Shown here: positions 29,736-39,840 of the stretch, in pieces
How positions within the stretch are numbered: position 1 is the first letter of the stretch
How the letters are laid out: each line of letters begins with the position of its first letter
DNA from: Sulfurovum sp. NBC37-1
Lineage (GTDB): Bacteria; Campylobacterota; Campylobacteria; Campylobacterales; Sulfurovaceae
DNA: 64,000 bases
Direction: 5' to 3'
Assembly: GCF_000010345.1 (NCBI RefSeq)
Contig: NC_009663.1
Span: 620,001-684,000, forward strand
Notes under the pieces: model-generated
The model's input: only the letters and a program-made list of their open reading frames with translations
Told to the model about the DNA's origin: nothing
Database searches by the model: none
Program-made: the position numbers and the translations under genes

Positions 29736-29783
29736 TGTAAGAAATAGCCTACAGACAAACTTAAAAATAATTGATAGTATAAT
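29736..29783 (+). promoter_or_regulatory. promoter with TGTAGGA-type operator before the lone receiver
   Basis: TGTAAGA-AATA-GCCTACA (29736-29753) differs from the consensus at one base in each half-site. A perfect TATAAT follows 24 bp downstream (29778-29783), and the receiver gene starts about 37 bp after that. Confidence 0.6.
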
Positions 29784-29819
29784 AGGTATAGAATAAATTA
29801 GGAAGGAGTATTGCTAAAG

Positions 29820-30197
29820 ATGACTAAAAAAATACTGATTGTTGATGATGTAAATTTCAATATTGAATTTGAATCGAAAATAATTTTAAATATGATGAGT
29901 GAACTCAAGATAGACTGCAATATAGATGAAGCAAATACAGTAGAAAAAGCCTATGAGCTGATTGACAACAGCGATCCGTATGATGCGATGATCATCGATA
30001 TGAATCTACCGGATGGTACCGGTGTTGAAATTGCAAAGTATGCCAGAAAAAAAAGTGAAGAGACACGGTTGGCGGCCTTGACTATCTATCCAAATGAGTA
30101 TGCAAAGGAACGGAGCTACTTTGATCTTTTTATGAAAAAGCCTATTATGGTTCAATCATTCATGCAGAATTTTATGAGACTGTTACAAATTGGCTGA
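29820..30197 (+). CDS. stand-alone response regulator receiver protein
   Basis: A receiver domain without an output domain. The phosphorylation pocket is intact: IVDDV at the N-terminus, the acceptor aspartate in MIIDMNLPDG, the threonine in LTIYP and the lysine in MKKPIM. The start is either ATG at 29820 (MTKKILIVDD, the canonical start) or an in-frame TTG at 29811 close to the GGAAGGAG site. Such proteins shuttle phosphate between kinases and Hpt proteins or bind targets directly. It is followed by an EAL protein gene after 21 bp and preceded by an operator-bearing promoter. Confidence 0.85.
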   Translation: MTKKILIVDDVNFNIEFESKIILNMMSELKIDCNIDEANTVEKAYELIDNSDPYDAMIIDMNLPDGTGVEIAKYARKKSEETRLAALTIYPNEYAKERSYFDLFMKKPIMVQSFMQNFMRLLQIG

Positions 30198-30218
30198 TTC
30201 CCAAAGTAGATTAAGCAT

Positions 30219-31511
30219 ATGAATTCTTCTGTAACGGATGCTTTGACCGAACTTCCCGGCTACAATGTGCTCGTAGAGCATCTGGGAAAGAAACTGCATT
30301 CCGAGAATTTCCTTCCTACCGGAATACTCTATCTTGAGATAGAAGACCTGGTACGCTTTAACGAAATATTCGGTTACGATACAGACAAACAGATACTTCT
30401 CAATCTTAGCCAAAACATTTCAAACCTTTTTGATGATGAACTTTTTATACGTCTTGGAACTTATGATTTTGTCATTATGAAAGAGGGTGTTGAAGAGAGC
30501 AGTACATTGATGGTAATTGCTGAAAAAATCATCAATCTTTTGCGTGAACCCATCAGTTTTGGCGACAATCTGTTTTATATTACCGCAGCGATCGGAATCA
30601 GTATTTCCTCTAAAGAAGAGAGAGATCCGTTGATGCTGATCAAAAAGGCCGAGCATGCGATGAAAGAGTCAAAAAGAGAGGGGATAAACCGTATTTCTGT
30701 CAGTTCTGATACAGTTGATTTCTCTTATGAACATGAATTCAGGCTGCTCCATGATCTTCCTTATGCCCTAGAGAATGGAGAAATCTATTTTGCCTATCAG
30801 GCACAATACAGCTATGAAAAGTCTGCATTTACAGGTGTGGAGATGCTGGCACGATGGGAGCACCCTGAACTTGGTAATATCCCTCCCAGAATTTTTATAC
30901 CTCTTGCGGAAAAAAGCGGTATGATCACACCATTGATGACGCGGACACTTATTGAAGCTGCATCGATGTTTCGTAGACTTGAAGAACACAATATTATAGA
31001 GTTTTCCATTGCAGTAAACCTCCCTTTTCAGGTTTTAATGGAAGAAAGTTTTCTTGATACTGTACGCTTTTTACTTGATGCCTATGCACTCAAAGGCAAA
31101 GCATTGACATTTGAAATCATGGAAGATACTATCCCTGATCATCTCGAAAGTTTTTCGGCACGCCTGAATGAGGCAAAGTCGCTGGGCTTTTCTCTTGCGA
31201 TAGATGACTACGGAACAGGACACACTTCATTGACCTATCTGCTGCATTTCCCGATTGATTATTTGAAAATAGATCGTTCTTTCGTACACAACATACATCT
31301 AAGCAGAAGAAACTATCTACTCTTCAAGTCAATTATTGATATGGCGAAGGCACTTGAATTGAAAGTAATTGCCGAAGGTGTGGAGACAAAAGAAGAAGAT
31401 AATGTGCTGCGACAGTTTAAAGAGATCACTGTACAGGGGTATCTGTACAGCAAACCGGTCAAAGAAGACAAACTGATTGATCTGATAGAACAAACTATAC
31501 CTACTGTATAG
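30219..31511 (+). CDS. degenerate GGDEF - EAL protein, likely c-di-GMP phosphodiesterase
   Basis: The 430-residue protein has an N-terminal GGDEF fold whose signature is replaced by RLGTYDF, so it should not make c-di-GMP. The C-terminal EAL domain keeps the expected residues: the glutamate in VEMLARW, the asparagine in VNLPFQ, the glutamate in FEIMEDT, DDYGTGHTSL, the lysine in DYLKIDRSF and IAEGVET. It is therefore likely to hydrolyse c-di-GMP. No membrane segment or signal peptide is seen. It lies directly after a lone receiver, which may control it. Its last eleven bases overlap the convergent hybrid kinase gene. Confidence 0.9.
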   Translation: MNSSVTDALTELPGYNVLVEHLGKKLHSENFLPTGILYLEIEDLVRFNEIFGYDTDKQILLNLSQNISNLFDDELFIRLGTYDFVIMKEGVEESSTLMVIAEKIINLLREPISFGDNLFYITAAIGISISSKEERDPLMLIKKAEHAMKESKREGINRISVSSDTVDFSYEHEFRLLHDLPYALENGEIYFAYQAQYSYEKSAFTGVEMLARWEHPELGNIPPRIFIPLAEKSGMITPLMTRTLIEAASMFRRLEEHNIIEFSIAVNLPFQVLMEESFLDTVRFLLDAYALKGKALTFEIMEDTIPDHLESFSARLNEAKSLGFSLAIDDYGTGHTSLTYLLHFPIDYLKIDRSFVHNIHLSRRNYLLFKSIIDMAKALELKVIAEGVETKEEDNVLRQFKEITVQGYLYSKPVKEDKLIDLIEQTIPTV

Positions 31512-33552
31512 TTTTTGCCAGCTCCAAAGTTTCCTGTATAGATTTTTTATTGAACGGTTTTCCTACATACATGTCAAACATTTCCCTGTTGTTTTCATCT
31601 TTGGAACCATCTCCGGAAATGGATACTGCAAAGAGTCTCTTCCCACGCTTTTGAGTTTCCATCTCTCTGTATCGTGCAATGACCTCCGAACCTGAAAGTT
31701 TAGGCATTTGTTTATCGAGATAGACGAGCTGATATGGGGTATTCTGTTTCAGGCCTTCTTTGAGCAATGCAAGTGCTGCTTCACCATCAGTAACTGTCTC
31801 TATATGGCATAACTCATCTGCGAGAATGGCTTTGATCAGTTCGACATTGATTCTGTCATCATCTGCAACAAGTATGCGAAGAGGCTGATTTCCGCTGATA
31901 AATTCATAAAGTTCTTTTGCATAGTAGCCATACTGGGAGATGATGGTGTTGATACTGTTCTCCTCCTGGAGAAGGGAAAGAAATTTTTCTTCCACAGTAA
32001 GTAGAGAGATATTTTTTATTTCTGTTTCCCTTTGAATTTCTTCAGTGAGTTGGTCCTGATAACAGATAACATGGGTTATATTTTTTGGGATGGTTTCCAT
32101 TTTTTTCAATGTAGGTATCTGTGTTTTTTCGATACCCAGTTTTGTGAGATACCGTACCATGTTTCTTGCGCTGGGAAGGTTGTGTTTGGCAAATACCAGT
32201 CCTATCTGTACATGGGTATTGTGTATAGATGGCAACATAGCTTCATGATTGTTAACATTGAGAGGCAGTGAAAAATAGAAACTGCTGCCTTTGTCAAGTT
32301 CACTTTTAAGTTTGAGTTTTCCTCCGAGGGCACTGACATACTCTTTGGCGATACTCAGTCCGAGACCCGTACCACCATATCGCTGCTTTGTGTCCTTTTC
32401 AGCTTGTGAAAACGCCTTGAATATCTCTTCCTGTTTCTCCGGATCGATGCCGATTCCGCTATCGTTAACCGATATTTTCATCTTCTTTTCATCTGCTTTG
32501 TACTGTACAAGAAGGGAGATATCCCTTCCTGATGGAGTGAATTTGTAGGCGTTGTTCAGCAGGTTCATCAAAACACGTTTGAGCTTGCCATCTTCTATCG
32601 TGATCTCTTTGGGAAGTGCCGGGTCAATGAAAATATTGTAAGTGATCCCTTTATTGTACATATTAGCTGAGAATGTTTCTGCAACATCAGCAAGGAATTT
32701 TGTAGGATTCAGTGTCACTGCTTCATCTTTGCTCCGCTCTCTCTGGGATGAGATGCGGTCAAGAATAGAGCTTGTCAGATCATTGATAAAATGGGCACTT
32801 TCTTTGGCATTTTGGATGTACTGAAGCAGTCTCCTGTCCTCAAGATGATCTTCGAGAAGTTCAAGAAAACCATACAGGGAGTTTGCGGGAGTTCGAATGT
32901 CATGGACTGTATTGGCAAGAAAACTGAGTGTCTCTTCACTTTCTTCTGTTTTTTGCTGTTGCTGCTGTACTTCTTCGACTTTTTCAACCAGGTCTTTAGA
33001 ACTCTCAGTCAGACGCTGGCTGACATAAACTTCCGTTGTTTGTTCTTTCATCTCCGGATACATCATATAAATGACATTGGTCAGGAAAGGTGCAAGTGTC
33101 TCGAGTATCTCCATATCGTCTTCGGTGAAATTTTTGATCTTATGGATGGAAGAGTATGCAGTGATCATTCCCAAAAAGTTTTCTTCGTCAATGATGGGGA
33201 AGATGATCTTCGATTTGATCCTGATATTATCCGGATTGTCGACTTCGGCCAGATATTCTTTTTCACTGGCAAGGTAGTTGAAAATACCGCCGCTCAGGGT
33301 AAAGAAACATTTGGCAAATACCCCATGCTGGCCGAGCATGGATATTTCGTTGACACTGTCATCGTTTCGGGCTCTCAATAAAGATGCGGTCTCTTTATGA
33401 AAAACCCACAAAGAGGCATACTCTGTGCCCATGACATGTTTTATGAGATTTTCTGCAATTTTGTTAATCTCTATATGGTCTGAAGCAGACTGTATTTTAC
33501 GTGTAGATTCAGATACAAGTGCTTTAAGTTCTTTAGGTTCAATCTGTCCCAT
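31501..33552 (-). CDS. hybrid sensor histidine kinase (GAF-HisKA-HATPase-REC)
   Basis: Cytoplasmic hybrid kinase of 683 residues. The N-terminal 170 residues look like a GAF domain (LIKHVMGTEYASLWVF; IIFPIIDEENFLGMITAYS). A coiled coil with a QQQQQ run leads to the H-box VHDIRTPANSLYGF. The ATPase motifs are DSGIGIDPEKQEEIFKAFSQ and GGTGLGLSIAKEY. A further degenerate domain precedes the C-terminal receiver with acceptor aspartate in YLDKQMPKLSG and lysine in VGKPFN. No membrane segment is visible, so it senses an internal cue. It is divergent from the PAS gene across a shared palindromic operator. Confidence 0.92.
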   Translation of the reverse strand: MGQIEPKELKALVSESTRKIQSASDHIEINKIAENLIKHVMGTEYASLWVFHKETASLLRARNDDSVNEISMLGQHGVFAKCFFTLSGGIFNYLASEKEYLAEVDNPDNIRIKSKIIFPIIDEENFLGMITAYSSIHKIKNFTEDDMEILETLAPFLTNVIYMMYPEMKEQTTEVYVSQRLTESSKDLVEKVEEVQQQQQKTEESEETLSFLANTVHDIRTPANSLYGFLELLEDHLEDRRLLQYIQNAKESAHFINDLTSSILDRISSQRERSKDEAVTLNPTKFLADVAETFSANMYNKGITYNIFIDPALPKEITIEDGKLKRVLMNLLNNAYKFTPSGRDISLLVQYKADEKKMKISVNDSGIGIDPEKQEEIFKAFSQAEKDTKQRYGGTGLGLSIAKEYVSALGGKLKLKSELDKGSSFYFSLPLNVNNHEAMLPSIHNTHVQIGLVFAKHNLPSARNMVRYLTKLGIEKTQIPTLKKMETIPKNITHVICYQDQLTEEIQRETEIKNISLLTVEEKFLSLLQEENSINTIISQYGYYAKELYEFISGNQPLRILVADDDRINVELIKAILADELCHIETVTDGEAALALLKEGLKQNTPYQLVYLDKQMPKLSGSEVIARYREMETQKRGKRLFAVSISGDGSKDENNREMFDMYVGKPFNKKSIQETLELAKTIQ

Positions 33553-33594
33553 TTTTTAATTTCCTGAAATTATTGTTCGTATAATATAGCTGTA

Positions 33595-33667
33595 ATTGTA
33601 GTACAAAATCTCCTGTATGACTGTAGGATATTTCCTACATACACATCATAGGATTATTTGTTAATAT
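33595..33667. promoter_or_regulatory. divergent promoters around a perfect TGTAGGA-N4-TCCTACA operator
   Basis: The palindrome TGTAGGA-TATT-TCCTACA (33622-33639) sits between the hybrid kinase and PAS genes. On the minus strand a TACAAT lies 21 bp away (33595-33600); on the plus strand a TAATAT lies 22 bp away (33662-33667). One bound dimer could act on both promoters. Confidence 0.65.
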
Positions 33668-33695
33668 TCCGAACAATCAAAAAAGGAACTACAAT

Positions 33696-34217
33696 ATGGA
33701 AAGACCAACACCTACCGATGTAGAACGCGAAGTAACCAACGTTGACATGATCGTATCCAAAGGAGATGCCGAAGGTAATATTACCTATACCAATCCGATC
33801 TTTATGAAAATTTCCGGCTACTCTCAGGGAGAACTGCTGGATAAACCTCATGCTATTTTAAGACACCCCGATATGCCAAAAGCGATCTTCAAATACCTTT
33901 GGGACAATATCTCCGAAGGTAAAGAAGTACATGCATATGTCAAAAACCTATGCAAAGACGGCAGTTACTACTGGGTTTTAGCTCAGGTGAGAATGGCAAA
34001 GAATCCCGATGGTTCTTTTAGAAACTATGTCTCCACCAGGAAAAAGGTGAGTGAAAGTGCCAAAAAGACCATAAGTGAACTCTATGCAAAAATGCTTGAG
34101 GCAGAAAAAGAGAACGGTATTGATGCTTCAGTAAAGGTACTGGAGGATTTTCTTGCACAAAAAGGTCACAGCCTGGCAACATTTAATGAATGTATGGACG
34201 AACTCAACAAACAATAA
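33696..34217 (+). CDS. PAS domain protein, Aer/CetB-like
   Basis: A 173-residue cytoplasmic protein made of one PAS domain with a short helical tail. The sequence follows the Aer pattern: DAEGNITYTNPIFMKISGYS, LLDKPHAILRHPDMPKAIF, KYLWDNISEGKEVHAYVKNLCKDGSYYWVLAQV. In Aer and Campylobacter CetB this domain binds FAD and senses redox state, passing the signal to a separate chemotaxis protein. No transducer gene is adjacent here, so a nearby kinase may be the partner. It lies 15 bp before the next gene. Confidence 0.85.
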   Translation: MERPTPTDVEREVTNVDMIVSKGDAEGNITYTNPIFMKISGYSQGELLDKPHAILRHPDMPKAIFKYLWDNISEGKEVHAYVKNLCKDGSYYWVLAQVRMAKNPDGSFRNYVSTRKKVSESAKKTISELYAKMLEAEKENGIDASVKVLEDFLAQKGHSLATFNECMDELNKQ

Positions 34218-34232
34218 ACTAAAGGAAAAACA

Positions 34233-34622
34233 ATGATCGATTTTAACAATGCAATGAAAAGACTGCGTGTCGTAAACGGCTATCTTGGTTCAGCTGTACT
34301 GAACTATTCCGGAGAGACACTTTATATTGACAATGAAAATACCGGAACAGATATTCCCTACTCTGCGAGTATCTTTAATGATGCATACAGAATGATATCT
34401 GAATCCTCTTTGGATGTCGGTTTCTCTGAAGCTTCCTCTATTGAAGCAAAGACACTGGACGGGCATGTGTTTCTCATTAACAGTGCAGGGTTGCTCTCTG
34501 ACGACAACTTTGCAAAGATCAACGTATTTGCCATCTTCAGAGATGACGGAAATGTCGCTTTGGCAAAAATGATTATGGACAAATCAGCTAAGAATATGTC
34601 TGAAGAACTGGCGAAGATGTAA
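34233..34622 (+). CDS. possible roadblock/LC7-like small protein
   Basis: A 129-residue soluble protein, probably in one transcript with the PAS gene. The segment VNGYLGSAVLNYSGETLY followed by a helix and a strand (DGHVFLINSAG; NVFAIFRDDGNVALAKMIMDK) resembles the roadblock/LC7 profilin-like fold, which often binds small GTPases or acts as a dimer adapter. This is a weak pattern match and could be wrong. No catalytic motif is visible. Confidence 0.55.
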   Translation: MIDFNNAMKRLRVVNGYLGSAVLNYSGETLYIDNENTGTDIPYSASIFNDAYRMISESSLDVGFSEASSIEAKTLDGHVFLINSAGLLSDDNFAKINVFAIFRDDGNVALAKMIMDKSAKNMSEELAKM

Positions 34623-34627
34623 AACAG

Positions 34628-34652
34628 GTGCAATGACAAAAGGTCATTGCAC
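34628..34652 (+). other. perfect 10-bp hairpin before sixA
   Basis: GTGCAATGAC (34628-34637) and GTCATTGCAC (34643-34652) form a perfect stem with loop AAAAG. It lies six bases after the preceding stop and 12 bases ahead of the sixA ATG, so it probably acts as a terminator for the PAS-roadblock message or a leader structure for sixA. No T-run follows on the plus strand. Confidence 0.6.
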
Positions 34653-34664
34653 AAAAAGTCAAAA

Positions 34665-35213
34665 ATGAGGTGCACCATTAAAACATTATATTTGATAAGA
34701 CATGCCAAATCAAGCTGGAAAGATATCGATGCCAGTGATTTCGAGCGTGGACTGACAAAAAAAGGCAAAAAAAGCATAGAGACCATCGGCTCCTATCTAA
34801 AGCTGAGAGGGGTATGCCCTGATATTATTCTTTCCAGTTGTGCACTCAGAGCACAGGAGACTGCCGACTGTCTTGCTAAAAAACTGGAGTTTGACGGGAA
34901 AATCAATTATATGCAGGAACTCTATTTTACTGATACAGAGACACTTAAACAAATTGTCATGCTTCAGGAAAATGATGCCGATACCATATTTGTCATAGGA
35001 CACAATCCGCAAATTACGGATATGGCAAATAGTCTGATCGATGAACATATCTCCAAGATTCCAACCATGGGCGTTGTCGCCACCAATTTTGATATTGAGC
35101 AGTGGAGTGATCTGGGAAATGTAAAAGGCACGATGGATTTTTTTATTTCACCCAAACAGTTTCAGTACTATATTCCGAACCAAATAAGGGCGATACTAAA
35201 TAAAGAAGTGTAG
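34665..35213 (+). CDS. SixA-like phosphohistidine phosphatase (histidine phosphatase superfamily)
   Basis: Histidine phosphatase with the RHG-type motif LYLIRHAKSSWKD and the second catalytic histidine in IFVIGHNPQITD, plus SSCALRAQETAD. SixA-type enzymes remove phosphate from histidine in Hpt domains. The start is uncertain: the ATG at 34665 (MRCTIKTLYLI) has no ribosome site, whereas AGGTG lies five bases before an AUU at 34677 that would give the typical N-terminus (I/M-KTLYLIRHAK). The gene sits among kinases and an Hpt gene, so a role in damping the phosphorelay is plausible but unproven. Confidence 0.85.
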   Translation: MRCTIKTLYLIRHAKSSWKDIDASDFERGLTKKGKKSIETIGSYLKLRGVCPDIILSSCALRAQETADCLAKKLEFDGKINYMQELYFTDTETLKQIVMLQENDADTIFVIGHNPQITDMANSLIDEHISKIPTMGVVATNFDIEQWSDLGNVKGTMDFFISPKQFQYYIPNQIRAILNKEV

Positions 35214-35271
35214 AATATTATATGAATTACCGCACCAACTAAATACTCAAACAGGGAGTAACAGTTTATTT

Positions 35272-36879
35272 ATGCGAAAATCACTTCAGGAGCTTCTTCA
35301 GGAAGCGGGTGAATGTACCTTGCTTTATGTGGAAGATAATCAATTTGTCAGAGAGAGTACACTTGATCTTCTTCAAATGTATTTCAGCCATATCGAAAGT
35401 GCCAAAAATGGTGAAGAAGGGTTGAAGAAGTATCAGGCTTTTTATGAAAAAGAGGGGAAATACTTTGACATTGTACTGACAGATATCAATATGCCCAAAC
35501 TCAACGGGATTGAAATGATACGTCAGATCAAAACACTGAATGAACGCCAAATGGTTGTTGTCTTTTCCGCACATGGTGAAGCGAAATATCTCTTTGAACT
35601 TATCGATCTTGAAGTGATGCACTTCATTCTTAAACCCATAGACATAGAGCGTTTTGAAAAAGTCCTTGCTGATGCAGTTGAGATCATATTGAAAAGGCGC
35701 CAATACAGGCAAATGCATGAAGATCTTGCCCGGTCGAAAAAGCTGGCAGAAGAAGCAACAGAACAAAAAAGCCGTTTTCTTGCCAATATGTCTCATGAAA
35801 TACGTACACCTCTCAATGCGATCACCGGATTTATCAAACTGTTGGAAGAGAATGAAAAAGATGAAACAAAACTGAAGTATCTGAAAATCGTCGAAAACTC
35901 CTCAGAGTCTCTGCTGCAAATTATCAATGATATTCTGGATATTTCCAAAATTGAAAGCGGTAACCTCATGATTGAGCCTTACAATTTCAATCCTTATGAA
36001 GATCTGATCATGATCGCTGAACTCTTTCAGACAAGGGCCGCAGAGAAAAATATCATTTTTCAGATCAGATACAACAATAATATGCCAAAGATACTTTTCG
36101 GAGATGCGCTGAGGATCAAACAGATCTTTACCAATCTGCTCTCCAATGCCATAAAATTCACACCGGAGGGTTCCGTAGTCAAATGTATCATCTGGTACAA
36201 AAACGGGCAGCTTAATATCAGGGTGAAAGATTACGGTATCGGGATCAGTGAAAAAAAGCAGAAAGCAATTTTTGAACCTTTTATGCAGGCAGATAGTTCG
36301 ACAGTCAGAAACTATGGTGGAACAGGGCTTGGACTCAGTATCAGTCTGGAACTGACACGCATGCTTGGTGGTACACTTACCCTGAAAAGCGAAAAAGAGA
36401 AGGGAAGTATCTTTACTCTTTCCATTCCTCTGGAAACAGGGAAAGAAAATGAGGGGAAAAGTACGGAGATTTCATTGCCAAAGGGGCACATTCTTATTGT
36501 CGAAGATCAAGAAGCAAATAGGATGCTGCTTAGCATCATTTTGGAAAATAGCGGGATGACATATGAAATGGCGAATGATGGCGTAGAAGCAGTTGAAAAA
36601 TTCAAATCCGGAAAATTTGACTTGATACTTATGGATGAGAATATGCCAAATATGAGCGGTATGGAAGCGGTTAAAGAACTGTTGAAAATAGAAAATCTGG
36701 AGAAAAGGCTCCATACTCCTGTCATTTCCCTGACAGCGAATGCCCTTAAGGGTGACAGAGAACGTTTTCTGCAGGCAGGTTTCGATGATTACCTGAGCAA
36801 ACCGGTAGAACCGAAAAGTCTGATGGCTGTGATGGCACGTTTGCTGCAAGTCTCCTCCGTATTTCCTAAAGAGATATAA
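35272..36879 (+). CDS. hybrid histidine kinase REC-HisKA-HATPase-REC
   Basis: A 535-residue soluble kinase with receivers at both ends. REC1 holds LYVEDNQFVRES, the acceptor aspartate in VLTDINMPKLNG and the lysine in FILKPID. The H-box is MSHEIRTPLNAITGF near residue 175. The ATPase domain has KDYGIGISEKKQKAIFEPFMQ and GGTGLGLSISLEL. REC2 has LIVEDQEANRMLL, LMDENMPNMSG and YLSKPVEPK. It could take phosphate from another kinase through REC1 and send it to the free Hpt through REC2. Its stop overlaps the start of the next kinase gene by one base. Confidence 0.94.
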   Translation: MRKSLQELLQEAGECTLLYVEDNQFVRESTLDLLQMYFSHIESAKNGEEGLKKYQAFYEKEGKYFDIVLTDINMPKLNGIEMIRQIKTLNERQMVVVFSAHGEAKYLFELIDLEVMHFILKPIDIERFEKVLADAVEIILKRRQYRQMHEDLARSKKLAEEATEQKSRFLANMSHEIRTPLNAITGFIKLLEENEKDETKLKYLKIVENSSESLLQIINDILDISKIESGNLMIEPYNFNPYEDLIMIAELFQTRAAEKNIIFQIRYNNNMPKILFGDALRIKQIFTNLLSNAIKFTPEGSVVKCIIWYKNGQLNIRVKDYGIGISEKKQKAIFEPFMQADSSTVRNYGGTGLGLSISLELTRMLGGTLTLKSEKEKGSIFTLSIPLETGKENEGKSTEISLPKGHILIVEDQEANRMLLSIILENSGMTYEMANDGVEAVEKFKSGKFDLILMDENMPNMSGMEAVKELLKIENLEKRLHTPVISLTANALKGDRERFLQAGFDDYLSKPVEPKSLMAVMARLLQVSSVFPKEI

Positions 36880-38249
36880 TGAAAAATGTAGAGTTGCAGG
36901 AAGCATACTTCTCTTCCCAGAAAACAAGACTGCTGCTACGGGTACTGGCGATACTGGCAATTACAATTGCTGTGATGTTGCTTGTCAGACTTTCAGAGGG
37001 CGATTATAATCAGTTTGTGGCAGATATCCTTTTTGAAGGCATCGTTGTTTTTGGCTACGTCAGACTGAAAAAAGATGCCTCAGCCTACAAGGTGATTACA
37101 CGGATAGTCTTTTTTTCTGCAATTTTTGTTTCCTTTTTTCTACTGCGTAATCATCCGGATATGCCCATACGTTTTATCTGGTTCTCCACCATTGTCTACA
37201 TGATCTACTATCTTTTTGACAAACGAGAAGCATATTATTGGATAAGTATGCTCACAGTGGTACTCCTGATACTTTATTTTAGCGATATGCAGAGTTTCTC
37301 ATTGAGTGTGATAGATTTTTTTATCTGGATACTGAACATGGTCATCGTATTGATGATTTCTCACTGGTATGCGACAATAGAGGAGGCTTCAACAAAGAAA
37401 CTTCTTTATATCCAACACAGGCTGGCTGAAGAGGTCAGTAAAAAAACCTGGGAACTTGAACGAAGAACAAAGGAATTGGAAGCACTAAATCAAAATCTCG
37501 AAGATCGGGTCGGAGAAGCGGTACGGAAAAACAGTGAACAGGAGCAACTCCTTTTCATACAGGCACGTCATGCACAAATGGGTGAAGCATTGAGTATGAT
37601 CGCACATCAGTGGAGACAGCCGCTCAATGCCATTGCTTTAACCAATGTAGGTATGCAAAAAGTACTGAGAAGCGCTCACTGTGATATAGAGCAGTTTACA
37701 GCAAAAACCAAACGTATTGAAGAATATGTGCAGCACCTTTCGCAGACCATTGATGATTTCAGAAACTTTTTTCGTTTTGATTCCGAAAAGTCTGATTTTG
37801 TACTCTCAAAAACAGTGGACGATGCGCTGGACCTGATTGGTTCCGGACTGAAAGCAGAAGGAATTACGGTTACTATAGAAGAAATATGCCACTGTATCGT
37901 TTACTCCTACCCCAATGAGGTAATCCATGTCATATTGAATCTTTTGAATAATGCCAGAGATGCACTTACCGCTAAAAACATAGATGATAAACATATCATT
38001 ATCAGGATGTACCGAGACAGGAAGTCAGTATATTTGGAGATAGAAGATAGCGGAGGAGGTATTCCGGAAGTGTTGATCGAAAAAGTCTTTGATCCTTACT
38101 TTACGACAAAAGAAGAAAGCGGAGGAACCGGCCTGGGACTGTATATGTCCAAACTAATCGTAGAAAAACACTGCCAGGGGAGATTGGAGGTGAAAAATAC
38201 AGATAAAGGTGCATGCTTTAGAGTTTGTTTTCCTCTCGAGTCGGAGTAG
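36879..38249 (+). CDS. membrane sensor histidine kinase
   Basis: A 456-residue kinase with about five or six membrane segments in the first 170 residues (RVLAILAITIAVMLLVRL through LNMVIVLMISHWY). A coiled coil (TWELERRTKELEALNQNLEDRV) leads to the H-box IAHQWRQPLNAIALTN. The ATPase domain has NVLNN-like HVILNLLNNARDAL, DSGGGIPEVLIEKVFDPYF and GGTGLGLYMSKLIVE. It has no receiver. The membrane domain may sense a lipid or respiratory state, which is an inference. Its end overlaps the convergent NarL-type regulator gene by 32 bases. Confidence 0.92.
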   Translation: MKNVELQEAYFSSQKTRLLLRVLAILAITIAVMLLVRLSEGDYNQFVADILFEGIVVFGYVRLKKDASAYKVITRIVFFSAIFVSFFLLRNHPDMPIRFIWFSTIVYMIYYLFDKREAYYWISMLTVVLLILYFSDMQSFSLSVIDFFIWILNMVIVLMISHWYATIEEASTKKLLYIQHRLAEEVSKKTWELERRTKELEALNQNLEDRVGEAVRKNSEQEQLLFIQARHAQMGEALSMIAHQWRQPLNAIALTNVGMQKVLRSAHCDIEQFTAKTKRIEEYVQHLSQTIDDFRNFFRFDSEKSDFVLSKTVDDALDLIGSGLKAEGITVTIEEICHCIVYSYPNEVIHVILNLLNNARDALTAKNIDDKHIIIRMYRDRKSVYLEIEDSGGGIPEVLIEKVFDPYFTTKEESGGTGLGLYMSKLIVEKHCQGRLEVKNTDKGACFRVCFPLESE

Positions 38250-38889
38250 AGTACTTTTCCCCCATAAAGGTTTCATAGGCAAAACGCTGTAGCTGTGAAG
38301 TCGTCTCAAATGAGAGTTTTTCCATGATCCGTGTGCGGTAGGTAGATATCGTTTTTGGACTGACATTCATATTCTCTGCGATCTCTTTGGGAGCCTGCCC
38401 CGCTGCAATAAGATTCAGTACTTCAAACTCCCGTTTTGATAGGATCTCTACGAGATCTTTTTCTTCTTTCCCTAGGTCTGTCCCCAATGGAAGAATCTCT
38501 TCAAATTTATTGCTGATATACTTTTTCCCCCTCATGATCGTAGTAATGGCATCGATAAGCTCGGAAGAGACTATTGATTTATTAAGATAGCCGGATGCCC
38601 CATTTTTAAAAGTACGAAGTGCGTAAATCTCTTCAGGGTAGGCACTCAATACCAGTATTGGCACCGAAGGGTATAGACTGCTGATATTTTCAAGGGTACT
38701 CAGTCCGTTTGTATCCCCCAGATTGAGATCGAGAATAAGAAGATCCGGGACAGCTTTTTCAAGTGCCTCAAGGAGTTCCGTATAGCTGGATGCCTCAGTG
38801 TGAATATGCATATCATTATGTGCTTCTATGATCATACTTAATCCGCTGCGTATCAGTTCATGATCATCAGCGATTGTAATTTGTATCAT
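38218..38889 (-). CDS. NarL/FixJ-type response regulator (REC-LuxR HTH)
   Basis: The only DNA-binding regulator of the cluster. The N-terminal receiver has TIADDHELIRSG, the acceptor aspartate in LLILDLNLGDTNG and the lysine in YLNKSIVSSE. The C-terminal LuxR-type helix-turn-helix reads LSKREFEVLNLIAAGQAPKEIAENMNVSPKTISTYRTRIMEKL. Proteins of this type bind palindromes of about 16-18 bp as dimers near -40, which fits the TGTAGGA-N4-TCCTACA sites; that pairing is an inference. The gene is convergent with the membrane kinase, which is a candidate cognate kinase. Confidence 0.93.
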   Translation of the reverse strand: MIQITIADDHELIRSGLSMIIEAHNDMHIHTEASSYTELLEALEKAVPDLLILDLNLGDTNGLSTLENISSLYPSVPILVLSAYPEEIYALRTFKNGASGYLNKSIVSSELIDAITTIMRGKKYISNKFEEILPLGTDLGKEEKDLVEILSKREFEVLNLIAAGQAPKEIAENMNVSPKTISTYRTRIMEKLSFETTSQLQRFAYETFMGEKYSTPTREENKL

Positions 38890-39022
38890 ACTAAATCATC
38901 CATTTGGTTACTTTTTCTATTTTATTTTTGATTATACATCTTTTTTTCTTTCCTGAAACTTGCAAAAAAATATATATTCAAAGAGTAAATAGTGTAAAAT
39001 ATGCTTAAAAAAGAAGTAAAAA

Positions 39023-39328
39023 ATGGAAAAACTGATTACAGAGACAATGTTGATCGCAAGTGAGAAATTTCAAAACTTCGGCTTTAAAAAAGAGCAGATA
39101 GAACAATTGCTTACATCCGGGAAGCGGGATCTTGAAGAAGAAAGTGAAAAACTAAAAATACTGCTCGATGAAAGGACACCCGACATTGAAAAGATCAACC
39201 AGTCTTTGCATGCACTCAAAGGTTTATTGTACAATCTTGGAAATATGGAAGCCGGAGATATTATGGCAGATCTCAAGAATAATCTTGATACTGCAAAGCA
39301 GATTGAAAAGATCAAAAAAATACTTTAG
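39023..39328 (+). CDS. stand-alone histidine phosphotransfer (Hpt) protein
   Basis: A 101-residue helical protein with the phosphotransfer motif SLHALKGLLYNLGNMEA, in which the histidine of HALKG is the phosphate carrier. It would relay phosphate between hybrid kinases and receivers. It ends one base from the end of a convergent receiver gene. No operator palindrome is visible upstream; the 133-bp gap to the NarL-type gene is AT-rich. Confidence 0.82.
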   Translation: MEKLITETMLIASEKFQNFGFKKEQIEQLLTSGKRDLEEESEKLKILLDERTPDIEKINQSLHALKGLLYNLGNMEAGDIMADLKNNLDTAKQIEKIKKIL

Positions 39329-39329
39329 T

Positions 39330-39725
39330 TTAATTGCTTTCTCCGAAAGCTGCTGATATTTTCTTTTCCAGATCATTGATATCGAAAGGTTTTTGGATAA
39401 AATCAACCGCACCCATTTCACGTAGTTCAGCTTCATTGTCCTGATCTACCGAGATAACCAGTACCGGTATATCACTGAGTGCAGTATTTCCTTTTATCTC
39501 TTTCAGAAACTCTTCTCCTGTCATAATCGGCATACGAATATCCAACAGGATCATATCGATTTCTGTTCCGGATGAATTTAATATTTCCAATGCTTCTGCT
39601 CCATCATAGGATGGTATAGTTTTAAAAGTTGAGATATTGGCCAGTAATGCCTGCAGCAACTGCATATTGAATGTATCGTCTTCGGCAATCAGTATGGTTT
39701 TGGCTCCGAAATTCTTTAAACTCAT
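39330..39725 (-). CDS. stand-alone response regulator receiver protein
   Basis: A 131-residue receiver without an output domain. The pocket is intact: LIAEDDTFNMQLL, the acceptor aspartate in MILLDIRMPIMTGEEF, the serine in VLVISVDQD and the lysine in FIQKPFDIN. The sequence resembles receivers of hybrid kinases. It is convergent with the Hpt gene (one-base gap) and its promoter carries a perfect operator palindrome. It may be a phosphate sink or an intermediate in the relay. Confidence 0.88.
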   Translation of the reverse strand: MSLKNFGAKTILIAEDDTFNMQLLQALLANISTFKTIPSYDGAEALEILNSSGTEIDMILLDIRMPIMTGEEFLKEIKGNTALSDIPVLVISVDQDNEAELREMGAVDFIQKPFDINDLEKKISAAFGESN

Positions 39726-39768
39726 TATTTCCTCTTATTATTTAGATTAATTTTTATAAACATAAAAC

Positions 39769-39840
39769 ATTATACTCAAAATAAGCTTTTAAATATGTAG
39801 GAAAACTCCTACAAAGTTTAGCTCAAAAAGTAGATAAAAT
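39769..39840. promoter_or_regulatory. divergent promoters around a second perfect operator
   Basis: TGTAGGA-AAAC-TCCTACA (39796-39813) lies 21 bp from a TATAAT on the minus strand (39769-39774), which serves the lone receiver. On the plus strand a TAAAAT (39835-39840) also lies 21 bp away and points to a receiver-domain remnant. Confidence 0.6.

Follow-up and report, generated by a model that had tools for sequence, protein, structure and literature searches.

A 10-kb signalling locus in the genome of the deep-sea bacterium Sulfurovum sp. NBC37-1, a single contig of 2,562,277 bases, appears from comparative sequence analysis to consist of two ancient gene sets that were merged about once and have been linked thereafter. 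The window analysed is a stretch of 64,000 nucleotides of this genome. Module A comprises an Aer-like PAS protein, a roadblock protein, a GAF hybrid kinase and a SixA-like phosphatase. Module B comprises a histidine phosphotransfer (Hpt) protein, a NarL-type regulator, a REC-kinase-REC protein, a lone receiver, and a protein with a degenerate GGDEF and an intact EAL domain. In most relatives the SixA gene of module A apparently begins at a very rare AUU or AUC codon.

Gene content of the locus

All genes that an earlier note had listed from the letters of the DNA are present in the window, at 29811-39725. The features are as follows.

29811..30197, + strand: REC1, single-domain receiver, module B (Pfam Response_reg, 38.8 bits; ATG probably at 29820)
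30219..31511, + strand: degenerate GGDEF and catalytically complete EAL, module B (Pfam EAL 209.5 bits, GGDEF 67.3 bits)
31501..33552, - strand: GAF-HisKA-HATPase-(possible pseudo-receiver)-REC hybrid kinase, module A (Pfam)
33696..34217, + strand: stand-alone Aer-type PAS protein, module A (match to E. coli Aer PAS 8dik)
34233..34622, + strand: roadblock/LC7-fold protein, module A (AlphaFold and Foldseek/VIA-align)
34628..34652, no strand: 10-bp perfect inverted repeat in the roadblock-SixA gap (sequence)
34667..34672, + strand: Shine-Dalgarno sequence GAGGTG, 4 nt before ATT 34677 (sequence and equal placement in relatives)
34677..35213, + strand: SixA-like phosphatase, module A, probable ATT start at 34677 (C-terminal tail PKQFQYYIPNQIR)
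35272..36879, + strand: REC-HisKA-HATPase-REC hybrid kinase, module B (Pfam; SHEIRTPLN in 23/23)
36879..38249, + strand: membrane histidine kinase, module B (Pfam; IAHQWRQPLN in 10/10)
38218..38889, - strand: NarL/LuxR-type response regulator, module B (Pfam Response_reg 85 bits, GerE 63.8 bits)
39023..39328, + strand: free Hpt protein (His63), module B (Pfam Hpt 19.8 bits; HA[LI]KG in 22/22)
39330..39725, - strand: REC2, lone receiver, strain-specific neighbour (Pfam 76.5 bits; in no other locus)

Judged by strand and spacing, the transcription units are REC1 with GGDEF-EAL (+), the GAF hybrid kinase (-), a five-gene unit of PAS, roadblock, SixA, REC-HK-REC and membrane kinase (+), the NarL regulator (-), Hpt (+) and REC2 (-). 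The start of the membrane kinase overlaps the stop of REC-HK-REC.

Distribution and history of the two modules

About 50 loci were collected and every gene in them was mapped, giving a comparison set of 51 loci. The relatives are mostly metagenome-assembled genomes with contig ends, and linkage was counted in the 36 loci whose sequence extends 4 kb or more beyond the roadblock gene in both directions. PAS directly adjoins the roadblock gene in 50 of the 51 loci. Of these 36 loci, 35 have PAS; 32 have SixA, and 30 the GAF kinase, at a distance of up to 4 kb. Hpt and the NarL regulator are found in 17 each, REC1 in 16, and REC2 in one, which is the window itself. Many Sulfurovaceae, and some Campylobacterales outside that family, have module A, in most cases by itself. 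A paralogous set of roadblock, GAF kinase and SixA, with no PAS gene seen and an ATC start, exists in another genome (L102). Module B occurs elsewhere with a FIST sensor and a NahK-like kinase and without module A, being near-complete in one other Sulfurovum locus (L054) and partial in three (L055, L056, L104). FIST sensors accompany module B genes in L054, L055, L056, L069, L070, L072, L099 and L104, of which L099 is a FIST-kinase-Hpt set elsewhere in the window genome (C1:1884457-1887717).

In a tree of the GAF kinases, the two-module loci form one group requiring 2 changes, against a shuffle mean of 14.4, which suggests that the modules were joined about once. The sole apparent loss of linkage is in a locus with just 1.7 kb of downstream sequence. 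The group includes a genus of another family (L132); the homologous locus of that family also encodes a FIST-PAS-HK-REC fusion protein (L132:11064-14216). Linkage survives rearranged gene order in some 20 loci whose GAF kinases share as little as about 50% identity. The earlier note had proposed a comparison of the gene set across relatives; there the genes stay together, rearranged in order and not dispersed, and this linkage exceeds chance grouping. A single joining followed by linkage through rearrangement makes the claim of one network plausible, but the set is two modules that are often separate elsewhere.

Proteins of module A

The roadblock protein has 129 residues and is the most conserved of the locus proteins, with 65-95% identity across most relatives. 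It has no Pfam match and no useful PDB sequence match, and fold comparison alone was informative; a search of the genome with Pfam Robl_LC7 (PF03259) matches only a different protein. The AlphaFold model (pLDDT 89) has the alpha-beta-beta-alpha-beta-beta-beta-alpha roadblock/LC7 fold over its full length, with matches to Roadblock3 (9jue, Z 16.7), a Streptomyces protein (3kye, Z 15.6) and MglB (3t1s, Z 15.0). On this predicted model the product of 34233-34622, previously described as a possible roadblock protein, is a member of the roadblock/LC7 superfamily by fold. A second, Pfam-recognised roadblock protein is encoded beside ABC-transporter-like genes (L154:1429-1806; genome near C1:1446472).

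The best solved-structure match of the PAS protein is the E. coli Aer PAS domain (8dik, E 2.2e-21). Its N, RHPDMP and W are conserved among relatives and include the Arg-His-x-Asp and Trp of the Aer-type flavin pocket; the Arg-His-x-Asp residues are required for FAD in Aer (PMC2628428). The protein is thus a predicted FAD binder of the flavin (Aer-like) type. The GAF hybrid kinase carries HDIRTP in 42/42 sequences and the receiver Asp in 41/42. Its residues 438-558 have a CheY-like alpha/beta fold; receiver matches are weak, with none below 0.001 in Foldseek. In three loci (L086, L091, L095) another GAF-domain protein of about 530-600 aa stands in place of the hybrid kinase and is followed by a protein of ~940 aa; the replacement in L095 (Sulfurovum sp. 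AR) is GAF only.

Proteins of module B

Active-site residues of the EAL, kinases, receivers, Hpt and SixA are kept across relatives. REC1 has invariant DD, D63, T91 and K110 in 20 sequences, and the EAL domain keeps ExLxR, N, E, DDxGTG, K and Q. The GGDEF-EAL protein had been described as degenerate; this holds for the GGDEF half, which reads RLGTYDF in the window and lacks the GGDEF motif in 16 of 16 relatives, and every catalytic residue checked in the EAL half is present. It is therefore a predicted c-di-GMP phosphodiesterase. An intact EAL adjoining a receiver makes a branch controlling c-di-GMP breakdown, as proposed earlier, plausible. The Hpt protein scores below the Pfam cut-off of 24.6 bits, and its HxxKG phosphoacceptor motif is present. 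Of the two lone receivers first assigned to the set, REC1 is conserved and belongs to it; REC2 was found in no locus other than the window among the 51 compared and is probably not a member.

The SixA-like phosphatase

TIGR00249 is the best family for the SixA-like protein, which at 64.4 bits lies below the equivalog cut-off of 74.5 bits. The catalytic His/Arg/His residues are present (in RHAK, ALRAQ and GHNP), and nearly all relatives retain RHA...R...GHNP, which marks the protein as a candidate phosphohistidine phosphatase. Module SixA proteins form a separate subfamily, marked by a conserved tail at the C-terminus, (P)KQFxYYxPxQIR; the housekeeping SixA that these genomes also encode (at C1:1950725 in the window genome) lacks it. 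Of 81 genomes, 18 have the roadblock gene, and exactly these also have the tailed SixA; the module-B-type Hpt family is present in 7 of the 18. This co-occurrence ties SixA to the PAS-roadblock-GAF kinase set. Neither it nor the Hpt loci that have no SixA (L054, L055, L056, L099, L104) support the earlier proposal that SixA drains the Hpt; two module-A loci (L078, L097) are also without SixA. Other Hpt domains do occur in module-A genomes that lack the module-B family, so an Hpt could still be a substrate. In E. coli, NPr and Ndk are in vivo targets of SixA, whose in vivo effect on ArcB is doubtful (PMC6282199, PMC12934123), so that any phosphohistidine protein is a possible substrate. An HPr fused to PTS enzyme I (L098; genome near C1:2338836) was noted as a possible alternative.

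Start codon of the SixA gene

Where the paralogues have ATG AAA, the first codon in the 42 module SixA genes is ATC (26), ATT (11), ATA (1) or ATG (4), and never another. In 31 of the 38 ATH genes the frame contains no ATG, GTG or TTG between this codon and the preceding in-frame stop, which in the 38 lies at a median distance of 11 codons; the frame in L090, for example, reads TAG GAG TCT ATC ATC AAA ACA TTA TAT. All 38 have a Shine-Dalgarno match of 3-6 bases placed 4-8 nt upstream. The pattern is independent of the gene preceding SixA and is seen in two families. Neighbouring genes, taken as a comparison, almost always start with ATG, GTG or TTG (PAS 32/32 and roadblock 72/72 with ATG or GTG). 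Automatic gene calls shorten or misplace the module SixA gene, which an AUU or AUC start, if true, would explain. Translational coupling was considered as the cause of the missing start and rejected, as ATC or ATT also occurs in loci whose SixA gene does not follow the roadblock gene (L079, L080, L087, L093, L096, L102). The 10-bp hairpin that immediately precedes the SixA ribosome-binding site in the window is not conserved in relatives. In Sulfurovum sp. AR (L095) a frameshift splits SixA.

The window SixA probably starts at ATT 34677. Its open frame also contains TTG 34647 and ATG 34665; the latter is in-frame, 12 nt upstream of the ATT and without its own Shine-Dalgarno sequence, and with it present the window copy is not decisive for an AUU start. 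AUU-type starts are inefficient and IF3-sensitive, infC and pcnB being examples, so the AUU or AUC start likely gives a small, regulated dose of phosphatase. Four module SixA genes start with ATG, and a low dose is thus not obligatory. In a survey of start-codon switches, AUG became AUU once among 61,358 cases (PMC5622118). For a signalling gene to retain an AUU/AUC-class start over deep divergence would be very unusual.

Proposed pathway and alternative explanations

The explanation that we prefer, and consider about as likely to be right as wrong, is that two signalling modules have fused, a sensory module A with low-dose SixA and an Hpt relay, module B. The Aer-type PAS protein, responding to redox or energy state, would form a sensory complex with the roadblock protein and the cytosolic GAF hybrid kinase. 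SixA, kept at a low amount through its AUU or AUC start, would strip phosphate from a phosphohistidine of this complex, most likely that of the GAF kinase and possibly that of an Hpt, and so set a threshold. The Hpt of module B would gather phosphate from the receivers of the hybrid kinases and hand it to the NarL-type regulator, affecting gene expression, and to REC1, which would act through the neighbouring EAL enzyme to lower c-di-GMP.

A chance collection of unrelated two-component genes in a signalling-rich genome is very improbable. REC2 is not conserved and these genomes hold many kinases, but linkage has persisted through the rearrangements and divergence described above, and the grouping in the GAF-kinase tree largely refutes this reading. 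We also regard as unlikely a single relay with the free Hpt as the SixA substrate, which follows the original proposal for E. coli SixA and the Hpt domain of ArcB. In its favour, the window clade retains the SixA and Hpt genes within about 4 kb of each other, and Hpt shows a weak association with roadblock across the genus (7/18 versus 3/31, Fisher p 0.025, uncorrected for ancestry). However, many module-A loci and genomes keep SixA without the module-B Hpt, module-B loci carry Hpt without SixA, and it is doubtful whether SixA acts on ArcB in vivo.

Module A may instead serve as the controlling part of a small-GTPase system. The roadblock protein would then be an MglB-like partner of a Rup GTPase, with input to this switch from the kinases and the phosphatase; this too has a rather small chance of being correct. 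The roadblock fold agrees with it, as does a Ras-like GTPase gene that directly adjoins Hpt in five close relatives (L064-L068) and lies near the locus in a sixth (L058). The GTPase is Rup-like and resembles the uncharacterised Group 1 kind, with no glutamine after the G3 DxxG and with OmpA-domain and GGDEF or kinase neighbours; in Group 1 Rup GTPases the G3 glutamine is missing and the GAP is unknown (PMC4316618). The roadblock gene is carried by 12 of 13 GTPase-positive Sulfurovum genomes (p 2e-6) and, at completeness of at least 90%, is found in 9/9 GTPase-positive genomes versus 0/14 (p 7e-5), both figures being uncorrected for ancestry. Against this, 6 roadblock genomes have no GTPase, Rup systems outside Sulfurovum have no roadblock protein of the module A kind, and a survey from 2014 saw no coupling of Rup to MglB (PMC4316618). 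In the window genome, moreover, the GTPase lies outside the locus, at C1:849469-849942 (L152), in an operon of OmpA-like, GTPase and GGDEF genes. An extended claim is more doubtful still: that PAS, roadblock, GAF kinase and SixA form an undescribed module whose roadblock protein regulates Rup as a GAP or scaffold, coupling the GTPase to phosphorelay and c-di-GMP, with SixA at low dose and sensitive to initiation factors via AUU/AUC.

Comparison with known systems

The statement that no named system has this composition holds for the entire set, but FIST-NahK-Hpt relays to c-di-GMP enzymes are already known. These include Legionella NosP-NahK-NarR, P. aeruginosa NosP-NahK-HptB and Burkholderia nosRPK, in which a FIST sensor, a soluble kinase and an Hpt and/or receiver control c-di-GMP enzymes. 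Module B elsewhere resembles them in having FIST, kinase, Hpt, REC and GGDEF/EAL. The window locus differs in that it has no FIST gene, its receiver and EAL are separate proteins, and module A is extra; a FIST protein elsewhere in the window genome scores 28.6 bits, below the NosP cut-off of 450. No description of a roadblock protein and a dedicated SixA combined with a relay of the NosP-NahK kind was found in the literature searched.

The actinobacterial conservons (CvnA-D) also combine a histidine kinase and a roadblock protein, as here, where some relatives add a small GTPase. Unlike them, the window locus has hybrid kinases with receivers, Hpt, SixA and an Aer-type PAS protein, its roadblock protein is unrecognised by Pfam, and the GTPase is Rup-like rather than MglA-like. 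CetA/CetB energy taxis in Campylobacter likewise uses a stand-alone Aer-type PAS protein, whereas the PAS protein here is partnered with a roadblock protein and a kinase and not with a chemoreceptor. Group 1 Rup systems share an OmpA-domain protein, a Rup without the G3 glutamine and a GGDEF or kinase output; here they are merged or co-occur with the roadblock/phosphorelay locus. E. coli SixA shares the RH...R...GHNP catalytic layout and the TIGR00249 family with the window SixA, which differs in its sub-cut-off score, its tail, its AUH start, and its fixed linkage with PAS, roadblock and GAF kinase, with a separate housekeeping paralogue.

Firm substrates are few for phosphohistidine phosphatases, and a SixA subfamily tied to a single kinase module offers a testable case. 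A roadblock protein beside a Rup GTPase would be a candidate partner for the uncharacterised Rup family.
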